Below are positions 24,215-59,086 of a stretch of 64,000 bases of DNA, one piece after another (position 1 is the first letter of the stretch; each line of letters begins with the position of its first letter). A program made the position numbers and the translations under genes. Location of the stretch: positions 28,213 to 92,212 of the forward strand of contig JAGWBD010000005.1 of assembly GCA_021296065.1 (NCBI GenBank), written 5' to 3'. Below the pieces are notes generated by a model that had not been told where the DNA came from, did no database searches, and worked only from the letters and a program-made list of their open reading frames with translations. This DNA comes from Anaerolineae bacterium (GTDB lineage: Bacteria > Chloroflexota > Anaerolineae > Aggregatilineales > Phototrophicaceae).

Positions 24215-24289
24215 CGGGGTGTGGCGCAGTCCGGTCAGCGCGCGCGCTTTGGGTGTGCGAGGTCATCGGTTCGAATCCGATCACCCCGA
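24215..24289 (+). tRNA. tRNA-Pro (anticodon TGG)
   Basis: Acceptor CGGGGTG pairs with CACCCCG, followed by discriminator A. The D stem is GCGC/GCGC. The anticodon loop is TTTGGGT, giving anticodon TGG, and the T arm is ATCGG-TTCGAAT-CCGAT. CCA is not encoded. The next tRNA starts 4 nt on. Confidence 0.93.
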
Positions 24290-24292
24290 CAG

Positions 24293-24363
24293 GCGGGTAT
24301 GGTGTAATGGTAGCACATGACCCTTCCAAGGTCCTGGCACGGGTTCGAGTCCCGTTACCCGCT
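24293..24363 (+). tRNA. tRNA-Gly (anticodon TCC)
   Basis: Acceptor GCGGGTA pairs with TACCCGC, discriminator T. The anticodon loop CTTCCAA gives TCC, and the T arm is ACGGG-TTCGAGT-CCCGT. The outermost anticodon-stem pair is a T-C mismatch. CCA is not encoded. Confidence 0.93.
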
Positions 24364-24377
24364 CTTCCGACCGGCAA

Positions 24378-24449
24378 GGGACCATAGCTCAATGGCAGAG
24401 CAGTCGGCTCATAACTGATCGGTTCCTGGTTCGAATCCAGGTGGTCCCA
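24378..24449 (+). tRNA. tRNA with anticodon CAT (elongator Met, or Ile2)
   Basis: Acceptor GGGACCA pairs with TGGTCCC, discriminator A. The D stem is GCTC/GAGC, the anticodon loop CTCATAA and the T arm CCTGG-TTCGAAT-CCAGG. A normal G1-C72 pair argues against initiator tRNA. Elongator Met and lysidine-modified Ile2 cannot be separated by eye. Confidence 0.9.
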
Positions 24450-48090: not shown

Positions 48091-49284
48091 GTGCAGCGAC
48101 GTCGCGGACATTCAGGAAACCCTAACCTTGGGCAGTATCTGCCGGCCCTGTTGCTGGCGACGCTGCTGCTTGCAACCCTGACCGTGCGGAGCGAGGACAC
48201 CACCCGTCTTTACTGTGACGATCGCCCGGGCTTTCTGGACCCGCCATGGATTGACGGTGATCGGTTCTGCGCGGAACTGGTCTACCAGTCGCCGACAAAC
48301 GAAGCGCTGGCGCTGGCGTCGCTGGCGGTTGCGCCCGATGGCACGCTTTACGCGGCCAGCCCCACGCGCGGCGAGGTATGGGCCTTGCGCGACAGCGACG
48401 ACGACCGCCTGCCAGACACTGCGCAGCGCCTGCTTTCAGGCCTGCTCCGACCAACGGGTCTGGACTGGCACGACAATTCCCTTTACATCCTGAGCAGTGC
48501 CGGCATTCTGCGCCTGCCTGCCGGCGCGCAGGCGGCAGAGACACTGGTTGCCGATCTGCCTCTGCGAAGCGGCCAGGCCAGCGGCGATCTTGTCGTCGGC
48601 CCGGATGGGGTAATTTACGCGTCAATGGCTGCGCCCTGCAGCCACTGTGACCTAGGTGACGCGCCTTCCATTCTCGCCTACTCGCCGGATGGCAGCCGGC
48701 GCAGCACTCTGGCCCGCGGCCTGCGCCTGCCGGCCGGGCTTGCGTTGCGGGGAGGGGCCCTGTGGGCGACGGACAGCATCGGACGTGGGGACGCAGCGCA
48801 GGGGGACGCCCTCGACGAAATCAACCGTATCACGGCGGGCGCCCATTTTGGCTGGCCCTGGTGCAGCGGCGAATTGCGCCTGCCGACCACACCCGCTGCG
48901 ACCGACTGCGTGACTTTCATTGCGCCGGCCCTGACGCTGCCGACGGGCAGCGTGCCCCTGGGCATGGCCTATTACAACCACGACGCCCTGCCCGATTTGC
49001 GTGATACCCTGCTCGTGACCCTGCACGGCTCGCGCCATCGGGCCGAGTTACGTGGCTACGCGCTGGGCGTCATCCGCTTCGATGAACTGGGACAGCCACT
49101 GGCGCCGGAGGTCATCATTCCGCAGCAGCGCGGCGGGAACACTTACAGCGTCAGCAAGTTGAATCATCTCGGCAAGGGTTTCTGGCCAGAACGACCGCTG
49201 GACGTTGCCATCAGCCCGGAAGGCTGGGTCTACGTCAGCGTGACGGGCGGGCGGATTCTCGCCTTGCGCCAGCCCAGGCGCTGA
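48091..49284 (+). CDS. Soluble glucose/sorbosone-dehydrogenase-like beta-propeller protein
   Basis: The 397-residue product has a signal peptide and six blades of a GSDH-type propeller. Typical repeats are ASLAVAPDGTLYAASPTRGE, LVVGPDGVIYASMAAPC and LDVAISPEGWVYVSVTGGRI. GAHFGWPWCSGE is a family hallmark. Relatives use PQQ to oxidise sugars, but the short form and missing clear cofactor residues leave the activity open. GGAGG precedes the GTG start. The 3' end overlaps the convergent GT39 gene by 50 nt. Confidence 0.82.
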   Translation: MQRRRGHSGNPNLGQYLPALLLATLLLATLTVRSEDTTRLYCDDRPGFLDPPWIDGDRFCAELVYQSPTNEALALASLAVAPDGTLYAASPTRGEVWALRDSDDDRLPDTAQRLLSGLLRPTGLDWHDNSLYILSSAGILRLPAGAQAAETLVADLPLRSGQASGDLVVGPDGVIYASMAAPCSHCDLGDAPSILAYSPDGSRRSTLARGLRLPAGLALRGGALWATDSIGRGDAAQGDALDEINRITAGAHFGWPWCSGELRLPTTPAATDCVTFIAPALTLPTGSVPLGMAYYNHDALPDLRDTLLVTLHGSRHRAELRGYALGVIRFDELGQPLAPEVIIPQQRGGNTYSVSKLNHLGKGFWPERPLDVAISPEGWVYVSVTGGRILALRQPRR

Positions 49285-50770
49285 TTCCCTGCCAAAGGTC
49301 CGCCAGCATGCCGCCGATCAGCAGCGGCCAGAGCGGCCACAGGGGCGCAACGATGCGCCCTTCCCTCCAGTCGAACACGGCCAGAAAAATCACCCAAAAC
49401 AGGAGCGTCAACGCTGCCAGAACAAAGAGCGCGCGCCCGCGAAGGAGCGCCCAGGCCAGGGCGGGAACGATGAGCAGGTTGGTCCAGTTCAGGAGGTCAC
49501 GCGTGTCCGAATAGACGGCCATTGGCGCGGGCCAGAGCGGATTTCTCAAATAGGACAGGCCCTGCCGGTCTCTCGCCCTTTGCAGCGGGAAGGGTAAGTC
49601 GCTGTCATCATAGATTTCCAGCGAATCGATGTGCGGAAGGTGCCAACGTGTAATTCGGTGCAGCAATACATGCACTTCCCCGGGAAGCGATACTACAAAT
49701 TGCAGGGGTCTGGCAGCGAGTGCTTCCAGCGCAACGGCGTACAACAGCGAATCTGTTTCGCAGGGCCCCAGATTCCATGTCAGTACATCATTGGCGGGCC
49801 GCATGTCAATGGTTTCAGGCACAACTTCAGGCGGCAATTGCGACAGGAATTCCCTTTGCACTTCTTGCGTGACCCAGGGGCCGGGATTTCGCCAATCGCC
49901 ATAGCCCAGCGACGTTTCCGGCCGTGAGTTTGCCGGCAGAGCGCTTAAATTCAACAGTCGGGCCGTGGCCTCGCCGTTGGCCGCGACGACAGGGATATCT
50001 GCTTCATAGAGGGATTCGAGAAAATTATGGCCGCCAACACAACTCAATCGGAAAGTTCCTGTAGCTGGATAATGTACAAGGACGAAATAGCTGGCCAACA
50101 CCAGCAGGCTGCCCACGCCCAGGGCCACCAGGGCGTTCAGCCGTTTGCGCATGGAGAATCGTCTGGAAAACAGCAACGTCAAAGTGATCAGTGCAACCAC
50201 TGGCGCAAATACCAGTCGAGCCAAAACCGCGACACCCAGAATGACGCCGGCGACCAGAAACGGGCCCCTGGGCAACCCCCTTTGCGTGGCCCGGTCCATA
50301 ATCCAGATCGACAACGTGTAACACAGCGCCACCAGCCAGATCGGCAGACTCAAATGCGCCCACTGCAGGCCATGGGGATCAAACAGGGCCAGCAGTGCCA
50401 CGACAAGGCCGGCCCGCCTTGAATGGTGTCGGCGCGCCAGGTCATACAACAGGAAGGGGATCAGGGCGCTGAGAGTGACCTGAACAAGCAGGACGAAACG
50501 TTCGTTTAGCCGCCCGAACAATTGACCCGCAGCAGCCGCGGGGGCGATAACCAGCGGGTAACCGGTGTTGTAGCGGACATTGCCGATCAGCAGGTCGCCC
50601 TCCAGCAACCTGTCGATCAGGTAACGTTGCCCGTTCTGATTGTCATCGACCCGCACCTGCAAGGGATAGGCCAGAAACATGCCGCCCCGTACGAGCAGGG
50701 TCAGCAAGAGCAGCAGGCGAATGTGCGCATGCATCCGACTCAAGCCGCCAGGGATCGGGAACGCGCTCAT
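49235..50770 (-). CDS. GT39-like membrane glycosyltransferase
   Basis: The 511-residue product has about ten membrane helices and a GT39/ArnT-type first loop with acidic residues (QVRVDDNQNGQRYLIDRLLE). Such GT-C enzymes move a sugar from a polyprenyl carrier to lipid or protein on the outer face of the membrane. A large outer loop (about residues 240-355) follows the sixth or seventh helix. It is coupled by a 4-nt ATGA overlap to a shorter relative upstream. Confidence 0.8.
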   Translation of the reverse strand: MSAFPIPGGLSRMHAHIRLLLLLTLLVRGGMFLAYPLQVRVDDNQNGQRYLIDRLLEGDLLIGNVRYNTGYPLVIAPAAAAGQLFGRLNERFVLLVQVTLSALIPFLLYDLARRHHSRRAGLVVALLALFDPHGLQWAHLSLPIWLVALCYTLSIWIMDRATQRGLPRGPFLVAGVILGVAVLARLVFAPVVALITLTLLFSRRFSMRKRLNALVALGVGSLLVLASYFVLVHYPATGTFRLSCVGGHNFLESLYEADIPVVAANGEATARLLNLSALPANSRPETSLGYGDWRNPGPWVTQEVQREFLSQLPPEVVPETIDMRPANDVLTWNLGPCETDSLLYAVALEALAARPLQFVVSLPGEVHVLLHRITRWHLPHIDSLEIYDDSDLPFPLQRARDRQGLSYLRNPLWPAPMAVYSDTRDLLNWTNLLIVPALAWALLRGRALFVLAALTLLFWVIFLAVFDWREGRIVAPLWPLWPLLIGGMLADLWQGISAWAGARRESARPSR

Positions 50771-51378
50771 GCCTTACCGAATCCGAAGAAACGGGACCCG
50801 CTGGTCCTGCCCGGCAAGGGCAGACGCGCATCGCTTTCCCTGCCGTCGTAAAGCGGCCACAGGGCGTCACGCAGCAGCAGCAACCAGGGTCGATCGTGCA
50901 TTCCCCGGTACAGGAACAGCAGGGCCAGACCGCAAAACAGGGCGTAGCTGACGGTCGTGTCCGTCCGTACGGCGCCCGGCACGAAATCCGGCAGGAAGAG
51001 AATCAAAGCCATGGCTATCAGAATTGCCCTGCGCGTCAGACCTGCGACGCGCGCAATCAGGCCGATCAGCGCCACCAGGGCCGTGCTGAACAAAATATTT
51101 GGCAGCAGGGCCGGCAGCAGACCAACGCCCAGCAATCGCATGGACAGGGCCGGCCATACCGCTGCCAGTGGCATCCAGTAGTCGATGGGGTGGGTGACAT
51201 CCGCCGGCCTCTGGTGATACTGCCAAATGTAGTCTATGACGAAGCCGCGTCCATCAGCCAGGTTACCCGCAAGGTTATAATAGTGATTGGGGTCGAACAG
51301 GCCGGGATGTTCGGCCAGCAACGCAAGACCGACCCTCACCAGCAGGCCCGCAGCCAGTAGGAGGACGTAAACGCTCAT
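50767..51378 (-). CDS. Short GT39-like membrane protein, C-terminal half missing
   Basis: The 203-residue product matches only the N-terminal half of a GT39-type enzyme: signal helix, first loop NHYYNLAGNLADGRGFVIDY with its acidic residue, and about five helices. After YRGMHDRPWLLLLRDALWPL it ends in a polar tail. A full enzyme would have 450-550 residues. It overlaps the next gene as ATGA, so it may be a true short partner or a truncated copy. Its ATG overlaps that of the divergent GT39 gene at 51377. Confidence 0.6.
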   Translation of the reverse strand: MSVYVLLLAAGLLVRVGLALLAEHPGLFDPNHYYNLAGNLADGRGFVIDYIWQYHQRPADVTHPIDYWMPLAAVWPALSMRLLGVGLLPALLPNILFSTALVALIGLIARVAGLTRRAILIAMALILFLPDFVPGAVRTDTTVSYALFCGLALLFLYRGMHDRPWLLLLRDALWPLYDGRESDARLPLPGRTSGSRFFGFGKA

Positions 51379-52750
51379 GCGTCCGTTAACCCCGCGCCAC
51401 AGGGAAACATCAGAAGATGTTAGCAACCTGGCGCGCCTGGCGCTATTGCTCATCCTGCTGGCCCTGTTGCTGCGCCTGCTTGCCGTTCTGGCTGAGGATC
51501 ATGCCTACGGCTACGTTAGCGACGGCAGCGACGGCGCCTGGTATCTGGCGCACGGCTACGCCCTGGTCACCGGTTTCGACGAAGGCAAACTCTCTGAATT
51601 CGGAGACCCGTACGACTCCGACGGCGTCAAGATTTCCTTGCGCAGATTGACGACGCCGCCCCTTTACCTGCTGTTCAACGGCCTGCCGCAGGCGCTCTTC
51701 CCGCGAGAGGCGGCTGTGCTGCTCATTCGCGTTTTGCAGGCCCTGGCGGGCACTTTGTCGGTCTGGCTGGTGTGGCGTCTGGGGCGCGCCGTCACAGAAA
51801 ACGAACGCGCCGCCTTCATCGCCGCGCTGGCGATCGCCATCTCGCCGGCCTTCATTCTCGAAGCCACGCGCGTTACCACCGAATCACTCTACATTTTGCT
51901 GCTGCTTGCCGGCCTGGCGCATCATGCGGAACGACGCGAGCGATTCGCCGTGACCGGCCTGCTACTCGGATTGGCAACACTGACCCGGGCCGTATTGCTG
52001 CTCTTCCCGCTCGGACTGGCGCTGCACCTGCTGCTGGTCGATGGCCGCCGCCCGGGCCTGCGGCGGGCGCTGCTCCTCCTCGCTGTTTACAGTCTCGTCG
52101 TCGGCAGCTGGACCGTGTACAGCCTGGCGCGCTGGGACCGTTTTGTCATCGCCGGCGAGGGCGTTGCCGCCTTCTTTTACATCGGCGCGCTGGAGCAGGG
52201 CTGGCAAGGCTCGCACGAGACGGACAAACAACTGATTGAGGACACCGGAGCCCTGCCTGAAGAGCCACTTGCGCGTCAGGCCACCTACGTGCAGGGCGCG
52301 CAGCAGCGGATTGCGGCTGACCCTGCCGGCTATCTGTTGCGCCGCCTGAGTGAACTGGCGGACGCCTTGCTGCAGCCCCACGGCACAGATTACCTTGATG
52401 GCCCACCCTTGCGACTCATGGCCCGGGACTGGTTGCGCGAGGGCCGTTCGCCGTTCGAATTACTGCGATGGGTGACAGCAGAGGGCTTCTGGCCCAGACT
52501 TCTCATTTACGCCATTCATTTTGTCGGCCTGTTGGCAGGGCTGGCCGGACTTTGGCTCACGCGCAAGCGCTGGCGTCAGACCTTGCCCCTGGCCGCTTTC
52601 ATCGCCTATACCCTGTCGCTGCATCTGGCCCTGCATGCCATCCCCCGTTACATCTTCCCGATTTTGCCGCTGTGTTGGGTCTTTGGCAGCGTTGCGCTGC
52701 TGCAGGCAGGAGAAAAGTTGAAGGCTCGACAGAGAAAAGCCAAAACGTGA
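51377..52750 (+). CDS. GT39-like membrane glycosyltransferase
   Basis: The 457-residue product has about ten helices and the GT39-type first loop (YGYVSDGSDGAWYLAHGYAL, with RRLTTPPLYLLF later). It is a polyprenyl-linked sugar transferase by family. The ATG at 51377 shares bases with the divergent ATG at 51378 on the other strand, an unusual arrangement. AGGAGG lies 12 nt before. The next gene begins at or just after its stop. Confidence 0.8.
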   Translation: MRPLTPRHRETSEDVSNLARLALLLILLALLLRLLAVLAEDHAYGYVSDGSDGAWYLAHGYALVTGFDEGKLSEFGDPYDSDGVKISLRRLTTPPLYLLFNGLPQALFPREAAVLLIRVLQALAGTLSVWLVWRLGRAVTENERAAFIAALAIAISPAFILEATRVTTESLYILLLLAGLAHHAERRERFAVTGLLLGLATLTRAVLLLFPLGLALHLLLVDGRRPGLRRALLLLAVYSLVVGSWTVYSLARWDRFVIAGEGVAAFFYIGALEQGWQGSHETDKQLIEDTGALPEEPLARQATYVQGAQQRIAADPAGYLLRRLSELADALLQPHGTDYLDGPPLRLMARDWLREGRSPFELLRWVTAEGFWPRLLIYAIHFVGLLAGLAGLWLTRKRWRQTLPLAAFIAYTLSLHLALHAIPRYIFPILPLCWVFGSVALLQAGEKLKARQRKAKT

Positions 52751-52758
52751 TCAGTGAC

Positions 52759-53415
52759 ATGGACCAGGCGATGCGCCTGCACATTTACCGCTTCTGGTGC
52801 GAAAAGGGTCGGCCGCCCGGCGTGGCGGAGAATGCAAGGGCCTGCGATCTGGCCGAAACTGCCGCGCTGGCTGCATGGCGTCGCCTGCATGACGCGCATT
52901 TGATTCTGCTGGAAGCCGACGGCGATCGCATCCGCATGGCCAATCCCCTTTCCGCCGTGCCCACCAACTATCGCGTGCGGGTCGGCCAACACTGGCTTTT
53001 CGCCAACTGCGCCTGGGACGCGCCGGGCATTCCCGCCATGCTGCAACAGGACGCCGTCATTGAGGCGCGCTGCAGCCCGCACGGTGAACTCTTGCGCTGC
53101 GCCGTGCGTGATGGCGAGCTGCTGGCGGAGGAAGCCCTGGTGCATTTTGCCCTGCCCTTCCGCCACTGGTACGACGATCTGGTCGAGACCTGAGCGACAA
53201 TCCTGCTCTTCCGGTCGGAAGGGGACCTAGACGCCTGGTGCCAACAGGAGGGCCGGCCGCGCGGCGCAGTGCTAACCCTGCAGCACACCTGGGCACTGGC
53301 GCAGGCCTGGTACCGCAACCGTTTGTCACCGACATTTCAGGGTCGCAGTCCGGCTGAGGCGCAGGAACTCTTTGCCTCCCTCGGATTGCGCGGGCCTTTC
53401 TGGGAAGTGCCATGA
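52759..53415 (+). CDS. MerB (organomercurial lyase) family protein, predicted selenoprotein with Sec at residue 145
   Basis: Read through TGA 53191-53193, this frame gives 218 residues, the size of MerB. MerB cleaves carbon-mercury bonds with two cysteines and one aspartate (Cys96, Asp99 and Cys159 in the plasmid enzyme). Here Cys84 and Asp87 lie in FANCAWD, a further Cys105 follows, and TGA falls at 145 in DLVET-TGA-ATILLFRSE, where relatives carry the second Cys. The 73 codons after TGA keep the family pattern (WCQQEGRPRG, then LAQAWYRNRLSPTF and FWEVP). A hairpin fitting a SECIS element follows the TGA. The true stop at 53413-53415 overlaps the next ATG as ATGA. As an ordinary stop, TGA would leave a 144-residue fragment. 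GTG 52747 is an alternative start. selA-D are not in this window. Confidence 0.82.
53191..53223 (+). promoter_or_regulatory. Predicted bacterial SECIS element with its UGA codon
   Basis: TGA (53191-53193) is followed by 12 nt and then a 7-bp stem, CTCTTCC (53206-53212) with GGAAGGG (53217-53223), one pair being T-G. It closes the loop GGTC at 53213-53216. The loop begins 19 nt after the TGA with G in both first positions, as bacterial SelB-binding hairpins require; the E. coli fdhF loop also has GGUC. The hairpin lies within coding sequence, as is usual in bacteria. Confidence 0.75.
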
Positions 53416-54512
53416 CCCTGACGATCGACCCGGCCCAACTCCGACACTTGCGTCTGCGCGCCCAGGGACTCGCTGCGCCGTGCACAGACCTGACGGAGTT
53501 GCTGGACGGGGCCGTCAGCCTGCAGGCCCAGGACTACAACGCCGCCGTCCTGGGCCTGCGCGTGCGTAGCCGCGGGCTGGTGGCTGATGACGTCCGCGCG
53601 GCGCTGATCGACGGCGTATTGGGCTGGACCTGGCTGATGCGCGGCACGCTGCATCTCGTCGCCATGGCAGACCTTCCCTGGCTCTTGCCGCTCTTTGGGC
53701 CGGAAATCATCCGTCAGACTGCCCGGCGCTACCGCGAACTGGCTCTCGACATGGATACGCGCGGGCGAGCGACGTCGCTGCTGCGTCGGATTTTGGCAGA
53801 TGGCCCGCAAACGCGCGCCGCCCTGAAGGACAAACTGGAGGCGGCAGGTCTGCCCGCAGAGGGCCAGGCCTGCCCCTATTTGCTGCGCCATGCAGCGCTT
53901 GAAGGCGTCCTGGTCTGCGTGCCATTGCGCAGTAGTCGCCCCCACTACCGCCTGCTCGACGATTTGCCAACTGAGGGATGGCCTGGCGTTGAGGTGACGA
54001 TAACGCGACTGGCCCGTCGTTTTTTGCGCGCCTTCGGCCCGGCCAACGCAGCGGATCTGGCGCGCTGGTCCGGCCTGCCCATGCCACTGTCCCGCACGGG
54101 ACTTGACGCCCTTGCCGGCGAGGTGACGGCGGTGAACGCCGCGGGTCAGCGGGCTGTCATGCTCAACCCGCAACTGGCCTGGCTGGAGGACGAACCACAA
54201 CCCGGCCTGCATTTGTTGCCGGCTTTCGATGCCCTGTTGCTGAGCCACGTGGAGCGCGACCCGATCCTGCCAGCGGCGATCAGCCGGCGCATTCACCCGG
54301 GCGGCGGCATCATCCGCCCTTCCCTGCTGCTGGATGGCGTCGTGCGCGGCCGCTGGCAACTGAAGCGCAGCCGCCGGTCGCTTACCATTTTCGTCACGCC
54401 CTTCGTCCCGTTGCCGCGGGCACGGCTGCCGCAACTGGAGGCCGAGGTCGCGGACGTCGGACGCTTCCTTGGGCAGCAAGCGACCCTGCAACTGGAGGCG
54501 GTCGCTGCATGA
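53412..54512 (+). CDS. AlkZ-like winged-helix DNA glycosylase
   Basis: The 366-residue product belongs to the HTH_42 family of tandem winged helices. The catalytic QxQ motif of AlkZ is present as Gln38 and Gln40 in AVSLQAQDYNAA. LGWTWLMRGTLHLVAMADLP and VTITRLARRFLRAFGPANAA are other family features. AlkZ enzymes remove alkylated or crosslinked bases from DNA. ATG 53412 overlaps the read-through stop of the MerB-like gene, and the end overlaps tsaD as ATGA. The substrate is inferred only from the motif. Confidence 0.85.
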   Translation: MTLTIDPAQLRHLRLRAQGLAAPCTDLTELLDGAVSLQAQDYNAAVLGLRVRSRGLVADDVRAALIDGVLGWTWLMRGTLHLVAMADLPWLLPLFGPEIIRQTARRYRELALDMDTRGRATSLLRRILADGPQTRAALKDKLEAAGLPAEGQACPYLLRHAALEGVLVCVPLRSSRPHYRLLDDLPTEGWPGVEVTITRLARRFLRAFGPANAADLARWSGLPMPLSRTGLDALAGEVTAVNAAGQRAVMLNPQLAWLEDEPQPGLHLLPAFDALLLSHVERDPILPAAISRRIHPGGGIIRPSLLLDGVVRGRWQLKRSRRSLTIFVTPFVPLPRARLPQLEAEVADVGRFLGQQATLQLEAVAA

Positions 54513-55540
54513 GCATCCTGCTGGGCATCGAAACGTCCTGCGACGAGACGGCGGCGGCCGTCGTGCGTGACGGGCAGGAGATTTTTTCCAACGTCGTCGC
54601 TTCGCAGGTCGACCTGCACGCGCAGTATGGCGGCGTTTTTCCGGAGCTGGCTTCGCGCGCCCACGTGGAATCTATCACGGCGGTGGTCGACGAGGCTCTG
54701 GAAAAGGCGCAATCGACGCTGGCGCAAATGGACGCCATCGCTGTCACGCGCGGGCCGGGTCTGGTCGGGTCGCTGCTGGTCGGCGTGAATTACGCCAAGG
54801 GCCTGGCGCTGGGCGCCGGTTTGCCCCTGCTGGGCATCAACCACCTGGAGGGGCATGTCTATTCGCTGTGGCCGGGCATGCTGGAGGAACCCGTCTTCCC
54901 GCTGCTGGTTCTGATTGTCTCGGGCGGGCATACAGAATTGTTGCTGATGACCGGACACGGCCACTGGCAAGGTCTGGGCGCCACGCGCGATGACGCCGCG
55001 GGCGAGGCTTTCGACAAGGTCGGGCGCATTCTGGGTCTGCCCTTCCCCGGCGGACCGCACATCGAACGGGCCGCCCTGGAAGGCGATCCCGGTCGCTGGC
55101 GCTTCCCGCGCGCCTGGCTGGACGCCAGCGACGAGTTCAGCTTCTCCGGGTTGAAAACGGCAGTGCTGCGCGCCGCCTGCGAGGACCCCAACGCCCGCAA
55201 GCCGCAACTGCGCGCCGACGTTTCCGTGGCCGACCTGGCGGCCGGCTTTCAGGCGGCCCTGGTGGAGGTGCTGGCGCGGAAGACGGCGCGCGCGGCAGAG
55301 CGCTGCGGCGCCAGCGCCATCCTGGTGGCCGGCGGCGTCAGCGCCAACCAGGCCTTGCGCGCCGCCCTGCGCGACGCCAGTCCATTGCCGCTGCTGTTTC
55401 CGCCGCTGGAGCTGTGCACCGACAACGGCGCCATGATCGCGCTGGCGGCGCACTGGCGCTGGCAGGCCGGCCAGCGCGACGGACTGGATATGGAGGTGCT
55501 GCCCCGCTGGCCGCCGGGCGCGCCTCACTCCTTCTCGTAG
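54509..55540 (+). CDS. tsaD: tRNA N6-adenosine threonylcarbamoyltransferase TsaD
   Basis: The 343-residue enzyme puts threonylcarbamoyl on A37 of ANN-reading tRNAs. Motifs are ILGIETSCDETAAAVV-like at the start, FPELASRAHVESI, the metal HxxxH in NHLEGHVYS, VSGGHTEL and the ATP site LCTDNGAMIA. Length is normal. It overlaps the AlkZ-like gene by 4 nt and the convergent permease gene by 16 nt. Confidence 0.96.
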   Translation: MSILLGIETSCDETAAAVVRDGQEIFSNVVASQVDLHAQYGGVFPELASRAHVESITAVVDEALEKAQSTLAQMDAIAVTRGPGLVGSLLVGVNYAKGLALGAGLPLLGINHLEGHVYSLWPGMLEEPVFPLLVLIVSGGHTELLLMTGHGHWQGLGATRDDAAGEAFDKVGRILGLPFPGGPHIERAALEGDPGRWRFPRAWLDASDEFSFSGLKTAVLRAACEDPNARKPQLRADVSVADLAAGFQAALVEVLARKTARAAERCGASAILVAGGVSANQALRAALRDASPLPLLFPPLELCTDNGAMIALAAHWRWQAGQRDGLDMEVLPRWPPGAPHSFS

Positions 55541-56868
55541 GGGGTCCCAATGGCCGCCGGCGCCCGCGCCCGACCTACCAGGCCGGCGAGCACGACGATG
55601 GTCACGACATAGGGCGTCATCTGCAGAAACTGCGGCGGCAGGGTCACACCCAGGATCTGGAAGCGGGTCTCCAGCGCGCTTGAGAAACCAAAGAGCAGAC
55701 CGCCGCCGAATGCGCCAAATGGCAACCACTTGCCGAAGATCATGGCCGCCAGCGCAATAAAACCCCGGCCGGCCGACATGTTGTCGTCGAAGGTGCCGGT
55801 CGTTTCCAGCGAAAGCCAGGCACCGGCCAGGCCCGCGATGAAGCCGGCAATGGTGACGTTGATCCAGCGTGTGCGAATCACGTTGATGCCCAGTGTATCG
55901 GCGGCGCGCGGATTTTCGCCGACGGCGCGCGTGCGCAGCCCCCAGCGCGTGTAGAACAGGATCAGATGCGTTAGCAGCAGCAGGACGAACATCATGTAGA
56001 AGATGGGCTTGCCGCTGAAAAAAACCTCCTCCAGCAACGGGAACAGGAAATCGCCGAAGAAGGGCCAGGTGGCCAACTGGTCCAGCAGGCTGCGCAGGGG
56101 CGGAAAGGCGGCAAACTGTTCGAAGGGCACGGCCTGCAAGGTTTCCCGACCGGCATCCTGGGCATCAAGCAGAATTTCGCGGCGCATGAAGCTGGTCAAA
56201 CCCAGCGCCAGAATGTTGATCACAGTACCGCTGACAATCTGGTCCGTGCGGAAGGTGATCGAAAGCCAGGCGTGCAACATGGCCATGAGACCGCCGGCCA
56301 GCACCGAGACGATGACGCCAAGAAATAGCGCGCTGCTGTTCTCCATGTTGGGCGCTATCAGCGAAAAGGCCACAAAACCGAAGGCCGCGCCGGTCAACAT
56401 CATGCCCTCGATGGCGATGTTGATGACGCCGGAGCGTTCACACCAGATGCCGGCCATCGAGCCAATGACGATCGGCGTGGCCAGGCGCAGGCTGGAGGCC
56501 AGCATGCTCACGGCGTTGGTGCTGCGTCCGGCCGCCGCCAGAATCAGGATGGTGGGGAAAAGCAACAGGGCAGCCAGCAGCATGGCGCGGAAGTGAAAAC
56601 GCTGCAGGCGCTTACCCGGCAGCAGACCCGGGGCGCCGGCGATGACGTACCAGACGCCAACAACCAGCAGCCAGGGCTGCACGGCGATCTCCAGACCGGC
56701 CTGGCGCCCGGCCGTCAGGCGCGTGATGGTGTCCGGCGGCACCTGGGGCGCGGAGAGCAGCAGCCACAGGCCCAGCAGCACAAACACCAGCGAAAACACG
56801 CCGCTGCGGGTGATGCGAATGCGCTCGCGCCAGCCGCTGGCCGGTGCGGCGAGGTCCATGGTCGTCAC
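55525..56868 (-). CDS. ABC transporter permease, nucleoside/BMP type (second permease)
   Basis: The 447-residue product has about ten helices and the family motifs GIWCERSGVINIAIEGMMLT and TRAVGENPRAADTLGINV, which fit the NupQ/YufQ-type permeases of purine-nucleoside importers. GTG 56868 is chosen for GGGGAGG a few nt upstream; ATG 56859 has no good site. It follows the first permease immediately and closes the three-gene transporter operon. The binding protein is not in the window. Confidence 0.88.
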   Translation of the reverse strand: MTTMDLAAPASGWRERIRITRSGVFSLVFVLLGLWLLLSAPQVPPDTITRLTAGRQAGLEIAVQPWLLVVGVWYVIAGAPGLLPGKRLQRFHFRAMLLAALLLFPTILILAAAGRSTNAVSMLASSLRLATPIVIGSMAGIWCERSGVINIAIEGMMLTGAAFGFVAFSLIAPNMENSSALFLGVIVSVLAGGLMAMLHAWLSITFRTDQIVSGTVINILALGLTSFMRREILLDAQDAGRETLQAVPFEQFAAFPPLRSLLDQLATWPFFGDFLFPLLEEVFFSGKPIFYMMFVLLLLTHLILFYTRWGLRTRAVGENPRAADTLGINVIRTRWINVTIAGFIAGLAGAWLSLETTGTFDDNMSAGRGFIALAAMIFGKWLPFGAFGGGLLFGFSSALETRFQILGVTLPPQFLQMTPYVVTIVVLAGLVGRARAPAAIGTPYEKE

Positions 56869-56869
56869 G

Positions 56870-59086
56870 TCAGCCTCCCCAGCCCTTCGAGAACATCGCC
56901 GCTTCCTGCTCTTCAATACTCGCCTGCGGCACGCGCCACAGGTAGCGGATGATGGCATCCGCAGCGATGAACATGATAATTAGCGCCTGAATGATGATGA
57001 CGAGGTCGATGGAGATGTTGGCGTTGACCTGCATCAGCGGCGCACCGGTCAGCAAGGCGCCCCAGAGAAAGCCCGCCGGGATCATGTTGCGCGGGTTGGT
57101 GCGCGCCAGCAAGGCCACAGCGATACCCTGGAAGCCGAGACCGGCGAAAAATTCCGGCTGCAGGTTAAACTGCACGCCCGCCACCTGAATGGTGCCGGCG
57201 ATGCCCGCCAGCATTCCGCTCAGCGCCATGGCCAGCACGATGTTGAGACGCACGTTCATGCCCGCGTATCGTGCTGCGTCCGGGTTGGCGCCGACCGTAC
57301 GTAACTCAAAGCCTGGCGTTGTGCGGAAGAGGAACCAGTCCGTCAAAAGCACCGCGATAACCATGACCAGCAGGCCTAGATGCAGATGGTCGCGCACCGT
57401 CAGCCAGGACAGGATGAGACCGCCTGCCAGCAACAGGGCGCCGGCGAGCAGCGGGCGCAGCAGCACCTGGCGTTTGCCCGTCACCGCGTGGCGGCGGCGC
57501 CAGAAAAGCCACAATGTAAGCAGCAGCGCTGCCAGCAGGTACCAGCCGGCGCCGATTTGGCTGAACACCGGCAGCCGCGCCGACGCGGAGATATAGGCCG
57601 TCCGCGGCAGACTGGCATCGGGGTCGCGCAGCAGGCCGGGAGTCTTGATCAGCCAGTCCACAGTGAGAATGGCGATGAAATTGAGCATGATGGTGGTGAT
57701 GACTTCATGGGCGCCCGTCCAGGCGCGCAGGACGCCGGGAATGGCGCCCCAAAGAAAGCCGCCCAGCATGCCGCCCGCCAGCACCAGCGGCAGGTGCAGG
57801 AAACCAGGCAGTTGCGTCAGGGGCGCCGTGAAGCCCAGCACCACCGCGATGATGGCGCCGGCGTAAAGCTGGCCCTCGGCGCCGATGTTGAACAGGCCGG
57901 CCTTGAAGCCCAGCGCCACCGCCAGCCCGGCGATGACGTAGGGAATGGAGCGCACGAACATGCTCTCCAGGTTGGGGATGATGAGCATCAGCACGCGTTC
58001 GCCAAGACGCAGCCAGAGTACTTCGGGCCGGTCATCCGTCGGGTCGTCGGGCGTGAGGGCGCTGTCCTCCCGAATTAGCCCGCTGGCGCCCTGTGGCGAG
58101 CGGTCCAGCAGCAGTCGGTTGCCCGGGCGACGCACGACCAGGGTATTGGCCAGCGCGGTCGGCAATTCTTCTTCCAGCGCATCGCGCGCGCTGTCGCCGT
58201 TGAGCAGGAGCTCTTCGTCATAAAGGCGGCGCAGCAGGGTGAGTTGCTCGCCGGCCGCGGCGACGTCGTCGACGCCCGCCTGGTCCAGGGTTTGCAGCGT
58301 CGCCAGCAGGTCGCGCACGTCCTCCGTCGAGACCTCCGCCATGCGGACCACCAGGTCGGCCTCTGCCCCGGCGGGGTCCAGACCCAGGTCACGCGCCACA
58401 TCCAGTTGCGCCAGGATGCGTTGCAGCGCGACGAGTCCCTCGCCGTCCACAAGGCGCATCTGCTTCAGCAATTGCCCGTCGCCGATGGCAGCGGCTGCCG
58501 GAGCAAGGGGCTCAAGCTCCGATCGGAGGGCCTCCATGTCGGGGGCGGAGTCGGCCCAGGCTTCGGCAAAGCCACGCACCTCGGCGCGAGGCAGTTCCGC
58601 GAGATCATTTAGCAGGGGCCGCAAATCATCCAGCGGCACCTGCCCGATACTGCGGATGGCAGGCAGTCGCGCGCCGAGTGCATCGACCGCCTCGTCGTCC
58701 AGGCCGAGTCGTTCCAGCAGCCCGGCCATCGCGCGCAGTTCGTCGATATCGGCGTCAGCCAGACGGGCGCTGGCGCGCGCCAGGCGTCCCACCCCGCGCT
58801 GGTTGAGGTCTTCCTGCGCCAGCACTTGCCGCGCCAGGTCAAGGTGCTGCGGGCGGGCCAGATCATTGATCACGATGCCGGTCGCGCCTTCGATGAGCGC
58901 GCTGTAGGCCACACCGGCGAGGCGCAGGCCCTGCGGCAGGCTGCCGCCGGCGCCGGTGAAGATGATGAAGGGGATGCCGATGATGAAGGCCGTAACCACG
59001 GCCATCACCGGCACCAGACGCGGTGAAATGCGGGACCAGGCGCGCAGCGGCGCCGACCGCCCCCGCGCCGGAAGGGCCTCAGTCAT
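56870..59086 (-). CDS. ABC transporter permease, nucleoside/BMP type, with a very large outer insertion
   Basis: The 738-residue product is about twice the normal length. The standard permease core begins near residue 376 (FVRSIPYVIAGLAVALGFKA, then LFNIGAEGQLYAG and GAHEVITTIMLNFIA) and has the family motif TVGANPDAARYAGMNV. Between the first helix (about 22-45) and this core lies an Ala/Leu/Asp-rich helical segment of about 300 residues (about 75-375). By topology it should be outside the membrane. Its repeats such as ADIDELRAMAGLLERLGLDD suggest stacked helical pairs. It starts within the ATPase gene (8-nt overlap). Confidence 0.85.
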   Translation of the reverse strand: MTEALPARGRSAPLRAWSRISPRLVPVMAVVTAFIIGIPFIIFTGAGGSLPQGLRLAGVAYSALIEGATGIVINDLARPQHLDLARQVLAQEDLNQRGVGRLARASARLADADIDELRAMAGLLERLGLDDEAVDALGARLPAIRSIGQVPLDDLRPLLNDLAELPRAEVRGFAEAWADSAPDMEALRSELEPLAPAAAAIGDGQLLKQMRLVDGEGLVALQRILAQLDVARDLGLDPAGAEADLVVRMAEVSTEDVRDLLATLQTLDQAGVDDVAAAGEQLTLLRRLYDEELLLNGDSARDALEEELPTALANTLVVRRPGNRLLLDRSPQGASGLIREDSALTPDDPTDDRPEVLWLRLGERVLMLIIPNLESMFVRSIPYVIAGLAVALGFKAGLFNIGAEGQLYAGAIIAVVLGFTAPLTQLPGFLHLPLVLAGGMLGGFLWGAIPGVLRAWTGAHEVITTIMLNFIAILTVDWLIKTPGLLRDPDASLPRTAYISASARLPVFSQIGAGWYLLAALLLTLWLFWRRRHAVTGKRQVLLRPLLAGALLLAGGLILSWLTVRDHLHLGLLVMVIAVLLTDWFLFRTTPGFELRTVGANPDAARYAGMNVRLNIVLAMALSGMLAGIAGTIQVAGVQFNLQPEFFAGLGFQGIAVALLARTNPRNMIPAGFLWGALLTGAPLMQVNANISIDLVIIIQALIIMFIAADAIIRYLWRVPQASIEEQEAAMFSKGWGG

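Follow-up and report, generated by a model that had tools for sequence, protein, structure and literature searches.

A MerB-type gene of an Anaerolineae bacterium with an in-frame UGA, likely selenocysteine, at the second catalytic cysteine position

The organomercurial lyase MerB works through three residues, Cys96, Cys159 and Asp99. Selenium has been predicted in relatives of this enzyme before. As far as the available parts of the papers go, an 'alkylmercury lyase MerB-like protein' is catalogued as a predicted selenoprotein (PMC9312934), as are SaoL, with the motif CU (PMC13188914), and an 'Organic mercuric lyase MerB2' (PMC7435645). Selone models of organomercurial lyase outpace thiones in reaction (PMC11639659). 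Here we describe a MerB-type gene at positions 52759-53415 of a 64,000-nucleotide stretch of an Anaerolineae genome (Chloroflexota; assembly GCA_021296065.1, contig JAGWBD010000005.1, positions 28,213 to 92,212), which we call the window. We consider it highly probable that the gene encodes a full-length MerB-type protein in which a UGA at the position of Cys159 is read as selenocysteine (Sec), probably directed by an RNA hairpin, and that the product cleaves carbon-metal, probably carbon-mercury, bonds. The support, all at sequence level, comes from the UGA column among relatives, the MerB domain on both sides of the UGA, selection after it, a covarying hairpin, and selA, selC, selD and a partial selB in the host.

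A MerB domain on both sides of an in-frame UGA

Read with TGA open, 52759-53415 translates into 218 residues. The only internal TGA is codon 145, and it interrupts what is otherwise a single MerB-type gene (Table 1). A first-pass annotation, made from the letters alone, had reported an NCAWD motif supplying Cys84 and Asp87, a length of 218 residues, one internal TGA, and a stop overlapping the next start codon as ATGA; the translation confirms each of these, the downstream ATG lying at 53412. Translation may begin at GTG 52747 instead of ATG 52759, because a protein 92% identical to that of the window (P0003) opens with MISDVDQ.

The Pfam MerB model (PF03243) matches the window protein across the TGA with 95.8 bits. 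Taken alone, the half before the TGA scores 57.2 bits and the half after it 23.3 bits (E 6.9e-5), which is below the 27-bit cut-off. In an AlphaFold model the MerB fold is continuous through the UGA position and MerB-like over about residues 1-190, so that the protein has both the domain and the fold of MerB. Residue equivalences were taken from a residue-by-residue match to PDB 3f2g, with numbers counted along the aligned rows; position 160 of 3f2g is Ser by this count, in agreement with the title of that structure (C160S). The match sets Cys84, Asp87 and codon 145 on Cys96, Asp99 and Cys159, which we take to be the catalytic residues of MerB. The TGA lies 61 codons past Cys84, against 63 from Cys96 to Cys159, and the alignment thus bears out the earlier proposal, made from this spacing, that it occupies the position of the second catalytic cysteine. 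The column of Cys84 is invariant in one alignment (A3) and holds Cys or Sec in another (A4).

Table 1. Features of the MerB-type locus and its immediate neighbours (window coordinates)
Feature	Position	Strand	Remarks
Candidate Sec-merB gene	52759..53415	+	218 codons via TGA 53191; terminal stop TGA 53413-53415
N-terminal winged-helix-like part, residues 1-61	52759..52941	+	
Cys84 codon (MerB catalytic Cys96)	53008..53010	+	alignment to PDB 3f2g
Asp87 codon (MerB catalytic Asp99)	53017..53019	+	alignment to PDB 3f2g
In-frame UGA, predicted Sec145 (MerB Cys159)	53191..53193	+	alignment to PDB 3f2g, relatives
C-terminal MerB-domain part and tail, residues 146-218	53194..53412	+	translated only if UGA decoded
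Predicted SECIS stem-loop, CUCUUCC[GGUC]GGAAGGG	53206..53223	+	7 pairs; loop 53213-53216; 19 nt after UGA
PMT_2-type membrane glycosyltransferase, upstream neighbour	51377..52750	+	no functional link suggested
AlkZ-like DNA glycosylase family, downstream neighbour	53412..54512	+	ATGA overlap

Compared with the MerB of known structure (PDB 3f0o, 3f2f, 3f2g; MerB2, 5c17), the window protein shares the fold and the positions of the Cys-Asp-Cys triad, but its third triad residue is UGA/Sec, and an extra C-terminal segment of about residues 190-218 is conserved in its clade. It scores 44.8 bits against a cut-off of 193 for the MerB equivalog NF009710, and 36.7 against 200 for NF033555. SaoL (NF040728) is likewise a MerB-like predicted selenoprotein in the consulted passages of PMC13188914 and PMC9312934. 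Its profile, 159 long, aligns to residues 3-123 of the window protein with 42.1 bits, the cut-off being 140, and the CU motif described in the part of PMC13188914 consulted is replaced here by Thr144-Sec145. The window protein thus differs from SaoL in profile score and in motif. The SaoL model had no match over cut-off in 400 genomes of the host phylum, and a protein search with L119, the best-scoring SaoL relative there, returned 104 proteins, none named SaoL. The passage that lists 'MerB2' as a predicted selenoprotein of MerB type (PMC7435645) gives neither a sequence nor a Sec position. MerB terms are absent from PMC12013277 and PMC5029168, and PMC2398784 lists mercuric transport proteins and not MerB. 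The first-pass annotation had left standing the question of earlier descriptions of a MerB with Sec. The idea as such has precedents, since SaoL and 'MerB2' are predicted selenoproteins already, although the window protein is well below the SaoL cut-off. The literature searched, some of it available in part, gave only list entries for MerB-like selenoproteins; it described neither Sec in the Cys159 column nor a double-Sec MerB, and it had no name for this clade.

We scanned species genomes with patterns taken from the part before the UGA, which yielded 140 relatives, and kept the 80 that scored best against the full read-through query, a choice without preference for TGA as against any other codon (L-numbers below denote loci and G-numbers genomes, as labelled in this analysis). 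All 80 carry TGA in the Cys159 column and no other internal stop. By record titles, these best 80 span at least seven phyla: 46 are from Chloroflexota, 14 from Gemmatimonadota, 7 from Actinomycetota, 6 from Acidobacteriota, 2 each from Planctomycetota and Marinimicrobia, and one each from Calditrichota, 'Deltaproteobacteria' and an unclassified bacterium. The assignment of orders and genera to these phyla is our assumption, and most of the loci come from metagenome-assembled genomes (MAGs), whose contigs may be misbinned. Two genomes of the host genus (L036, L037) have the TGA at the identical position. In 121 related genomes, the read-through protein found 23 matches, of which 19 have TGA in the column and three (L032-L034) have TGC or TGT, that is, Cys. 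The remaining match, L035, is divergent and has two TGAs; its column holds GCC by pairwise alignment and the second TGA by multiple alignments. Homologues reading through the column with Cys also include L164, L165, L167 and L173, so that the in-frame UGA aligns with a conserved Cys of homologues without Sec. The homologue search proposed in the first-pass annotation therefore returned TGA or Cys, and neither TAA nor TAG occurs in the column among the 103 loci read (some being the same gene from two collections). Since the same TGA recurs in L036 and L037, in 80 of 80 kept loci and in 19 of 23 matches, TGA 53191 is unlikely to be a chance stop or a base-call error; sequencing error was considered and rejected on the recurrence of TGA in this column across relatives.

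Substitution rates indicate purifying selection on the stretch that follows the TGA: its dN/dS against the same-genus copies is 0.15-0.17, with the hairpin codons left out.

A covarying hairpin and the selenocysteine genes of the host

A stem-loop with the core UUCC[GGUC]GGAA stands 19 nt past the UGA. The bacterial selenocysteine insertion sequence (SECIS) model, as given in the part of PMC13188914 consulted, asks for a loop of 3-9 nt, a stem of 4-16 bp, a G within the first two nucleotides of the loop and a distance of 16-37 nt from the UGA; the hairpin has a 4-nt GGUC loop, 7 bp and 19 nt. It is also the sole place in the window where TGA plus 19 nt is followed by GGTC closed by at least five pairs. 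In alignment A2, 89.2% of cells pair in the stem, and two-sided compensatory changes occur in four of the seven pairs, affecting 27 cells where shuffles give 8.6 +/- 2.4. None of 500 shuffles reached the observed value on four of five measures, and eight did so on the fifth (further pair types). Every covariation measure falls when the partner is shifted by 1-3 columns, and RNAalifold independently recovers six of the seven pairs. In the branch of L148, L152 and L153 the hairpin reads UUCU[GGUC]AGAA at the same distance, both partners of its closing pair having changed, and the hairpin is absent from seven Cys homologues inspected by eye.

Codon use at the hairpin points to a constraint on the RNA. 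Among 80 distinct stretches from 81 rows, 73 use CGG for the Arg of the loop, a codon that makes up 21.9% of 1390 Arg codons in the rest of these genes. Wherever the hairpin has Ser, in 71 sequences, it is encoded by TCG (31.9% of 788 elsewhere), and Phe is encoded by TTC in 78 (68% of 671 elsewhere). Because the bias falls on synonymous positions, it suggests that selection acts here on RNA and not on the protein alone. Bacterial SECIS-dependent selenoproteins in general, following the portion of PMC13188914 available, share an in-frame UGA, a downstream hairpin and Cys homologues; what differs in this gene is that a single hairpin, UUCC[GGUC]GGAA, recurs almost unchanged from phylum to phylum.

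A search of the 121 related genomes for TGA-N15-TTCCGGTCGGA gave 22 matches, 19 of them in merB; the reversed control gave one. The one UGA-merB gene that the pattern misses, in G067, has an altered loop. The three matches outside merB (G071:C16:283570, G055:C132:12803 and G099:C315:7793) are chance or other selenoprotein genes. As a separate observation, L039, L041, L043, L047, L048, L053 and L081 have the loop CGTGA in place of CGGTC, and in the protein Glu replaces Ser.

The host, a MAG of 2.82 Mb that is 85% complete, has a tRNA-Sec with anticodon TCA (74 bits; ARAGORN agrees), SelA (550 bits) and SelD (354 bits; L146, G000:C70:2341-3276, minus strand). The host SelD has its own in-frame UGA within UASKCGPGD, which we take to be the active-site position, and itself appears to be a selenoprotein. 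Thus, of the four genes that the first-pass annotation wished to see, selA, selC and selD are present, and selB is cut by a contig end after positions 2-153 of 581. SelB exceeds its cut-off in the two genomes of the host genus. Counted over the related genomes, it does so in 19 of the 19 others with a UGA-merB, G054 among them, and in 63 of the remaining 101, with a p of 3.4e-4 that is optimistic because the genomes are related.

Possible chemistry and competing explanations

If the UGA is decoded as predicted, SelB would bind the GGUC hairpin and bring Sec-tRNA to the UGA. By analogy with MerB, the enzyme would then hold the metal of an organometallic compound between the thiolate of Cys84 and the selenolate of Sec145; Asp87 would protonate the leaving carbon, paralleling Asp99; the hydrocarbon would depart, and the metal ion would pass by exchange to cellular thiols or selenols. 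Sec could be favoured at the second position in that it is already ionised to the selenolate at neutral pH and in that form captures soft metals more quickly and holds them more tightly. With no MerA nearby, such an enzyme may serve in chromosomal housekeeping detoxification of trace organometals and not in a mercury-resistance operon.

Several results weigh against this reading. The choice of the 80 loci leaned to those with homology after the UGA, since they were scored with the full query. When the two sides of the UGA are compared in 20 pairs, dN/dS is higher on the downstream side in 11, lower there in 8 and saturated in one, and the pair L054/L059 has a value of about 1.1. By single-sequence folding, the window hairpin is no more stable than shuffled sequence (z 0.58), so the case for it rests on the alignment; no Rfam SECIS family matched near the UGA, even at a relaxed threshold, and the loop differs in 9 of 80 sequences (Ser to Glu, Asp or Gly). 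The tRNA-Sec model matches other tRNAs as well, a second host place reaching 49 bits (cut-off 47) and 5 of 14 controls passing, and so the 74-bit call leans on the agreement of ARAGORN. The SelB match stops at the contig edge (C58, base 6629 of 6630), and SelB-wing_2 (PF09106) was not found in the host contigs because selB is cut there. No mer gene occurs among the 17 neighbours scanned (7 in the window and 10 from nine relatives, 2 of the 10 matching no Pfam family), and MerA is over cut-off in 10 of the 121 related genomes and in none of the 20 UGA-merB genomes, a difference that is not significant by itself (p 0.21, 20 carriers).

These last two results also bear on what the protein does. 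A Sec-containing protein of MerB fold might have another job, in thiol/selenol redox chemistry, as a metal carrier, or as a lyase for another organometal or metalloid (compare the name of SaoL, organometallic lyase), a possibility that we take seriously without favouring it. The lack of mer genes and of MerA, the housekeeping context described below in 17 of 80 loci, and scores far below the MerB equivalog cut-offs all speak for it. Against it, 96 of the 142 rows of the alignment retain the Cys-Asp-Sec positions of the MerB lyase triad, which argues for protonolysis over plain redox. Mercury is not proven as the substrate, given the neighbours and the missing MerA, and it is from MerB that we infer mercury chemistry. 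The earlier claim that Sec replaces the mercury-binding Cys is well supported by the column, the hairpin and the sel genes; actual Sec insertion and an organomercurial substrate are what we infer.

That the UGA is a true stop, giving a 144-residue product and leaving the downstream frame as a relic, we regard as improbable in the extreme. Gene callers do end the protein there: among 330 database homologues, the 120 listed all have 144-181 residues and cover no more than 66% of the read-through protein. However, selection and MerB homology continue beyond the UGA, all 80 loci have TGA as the codon and none has TAA or TAG, Cys homologues read through, and the hairpin is conserved; the natural end of homologues that the first-pass annotation had named as a possible refutation is thus not what we see. 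Leaky reading of the UGA, or its reading as Trp or Cys by near-cognate tRNAs, would account equally well for selection after the codon, yet it is very improbable in view of a column that holds only UGA or Cys in 142 rows, a hairpin of published SECIS geometry and a host with Sec machinery. TGA also ends 27 of the 38 long open reading frames (ORFs) picked mechanically in the window, so that a general use of UGA as a sense codon seems unlikely for this host, and genome-wide reassignment was rejected on the same count.

Under the favoured reading, a MerB-type lyase with Sec at the Cys159 position, current annotation misses a predicted active-site residue, because the homologues listed (120 of 330) stop at about the UGA. 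The antagonism of selenium and mercury is usually seen as toxicology, with mercury poisoning selenoenzymes; here, if the reading is true, selenium would sit in the catalytic site of an enzyme acting on the metal.

Family members with one or two UGA codons, and gene context

In 400 genomes of the host phylum, the MerB model found 72 places. Of these, 45 have no internal stop, 18 have a single TGA and 7 have two, and one each has TAG and TAA. The protein tree and alignment comprise 142 rows, of which 139 are distinct, L100, L135 and L142 each repeating another row over an 80-residue middle stretch; L138, L140, L143, L144, L170, L172, L177 and L178 were omitted as fragments, duplicates or over-extended. 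One of those omitted, L140, is an additional UGA form. With U for Sec, the triads read CDU in 96 rows, CDC in 33, UEU in 4, UDU in 4, CCC in 3, CGC in 1 and CEU in 1. The FastTree phylogeny has third-position Sec in three places: the main clade, the L148/L152/L153 branch, and L161, which lies among canonical MerB. The seven Cys forms that read through lie beside or within the main Sec clade. Support is weak for several deep branches, which leaves the number of Sec gains unfixed. L161 (G186:C14) reads UGA then Cys at the Cys159 column (residue 155), without the GGUC hairpin, and groups with canonical MerB.

UGA occupies both catalytic Cys columns in eight genes, which fall in two branches, L035, L147, L149, L150 and L151 (e.g. 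L149:239-967, minus strand) and L148, L152 and L153 (e.g. L152:732-1388, plus strand). In one of them, Glu replaces Asp in four of five members. The chances seem evenly balanced that a large unnamed clade of MerB-type lyases with Sec for Cys159 extends through at least seven phyla, with paired-selenolate, chromosomal, MerA-independent carbon-metal cleavage in its two double-Sec branches. This natural series of Cys, Sec and double-Sec forms on one scaffold could show what Sec buys in metal chemistry.

The window neighbours scanned (48091-56958) are glycosyltransferase-type proteins, a GSDH-domain protein, the AlkZ-like protein, TsaD and a transporter permease. Among these neighbours there is no mer operon context as for a MerB equivalog, and no MerA partner passes in the host MAG (85% complete), where the best MerA-model match scores 326.8 bits against a cut-off of 454.45. 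Among the 80 loci, a tsf-type ORF lies within 200 nt upstream in 20 and an ORF of the amino-acid-kinase family, presumably pyrH-type, within 200 nt downstream in 25, and in 17 the Sec-merB gene stands directly between tsf (EF-Ts) and the kinase-family gene (e.g. L059, L066, L072). Neither ORF lies alongside the window gene. Only these two clusters were used because the neighbour clustering mixes in antisense six-frame ORFs, and one copy of each was verified by Pfam. Such a translation-operon context would fit a constitutive chromosomal function. At gathering threshold, Rfam matched only three tRNAs over the window, and a cluster of three tRNA genes lies at 24215-24449 on the plus strand.
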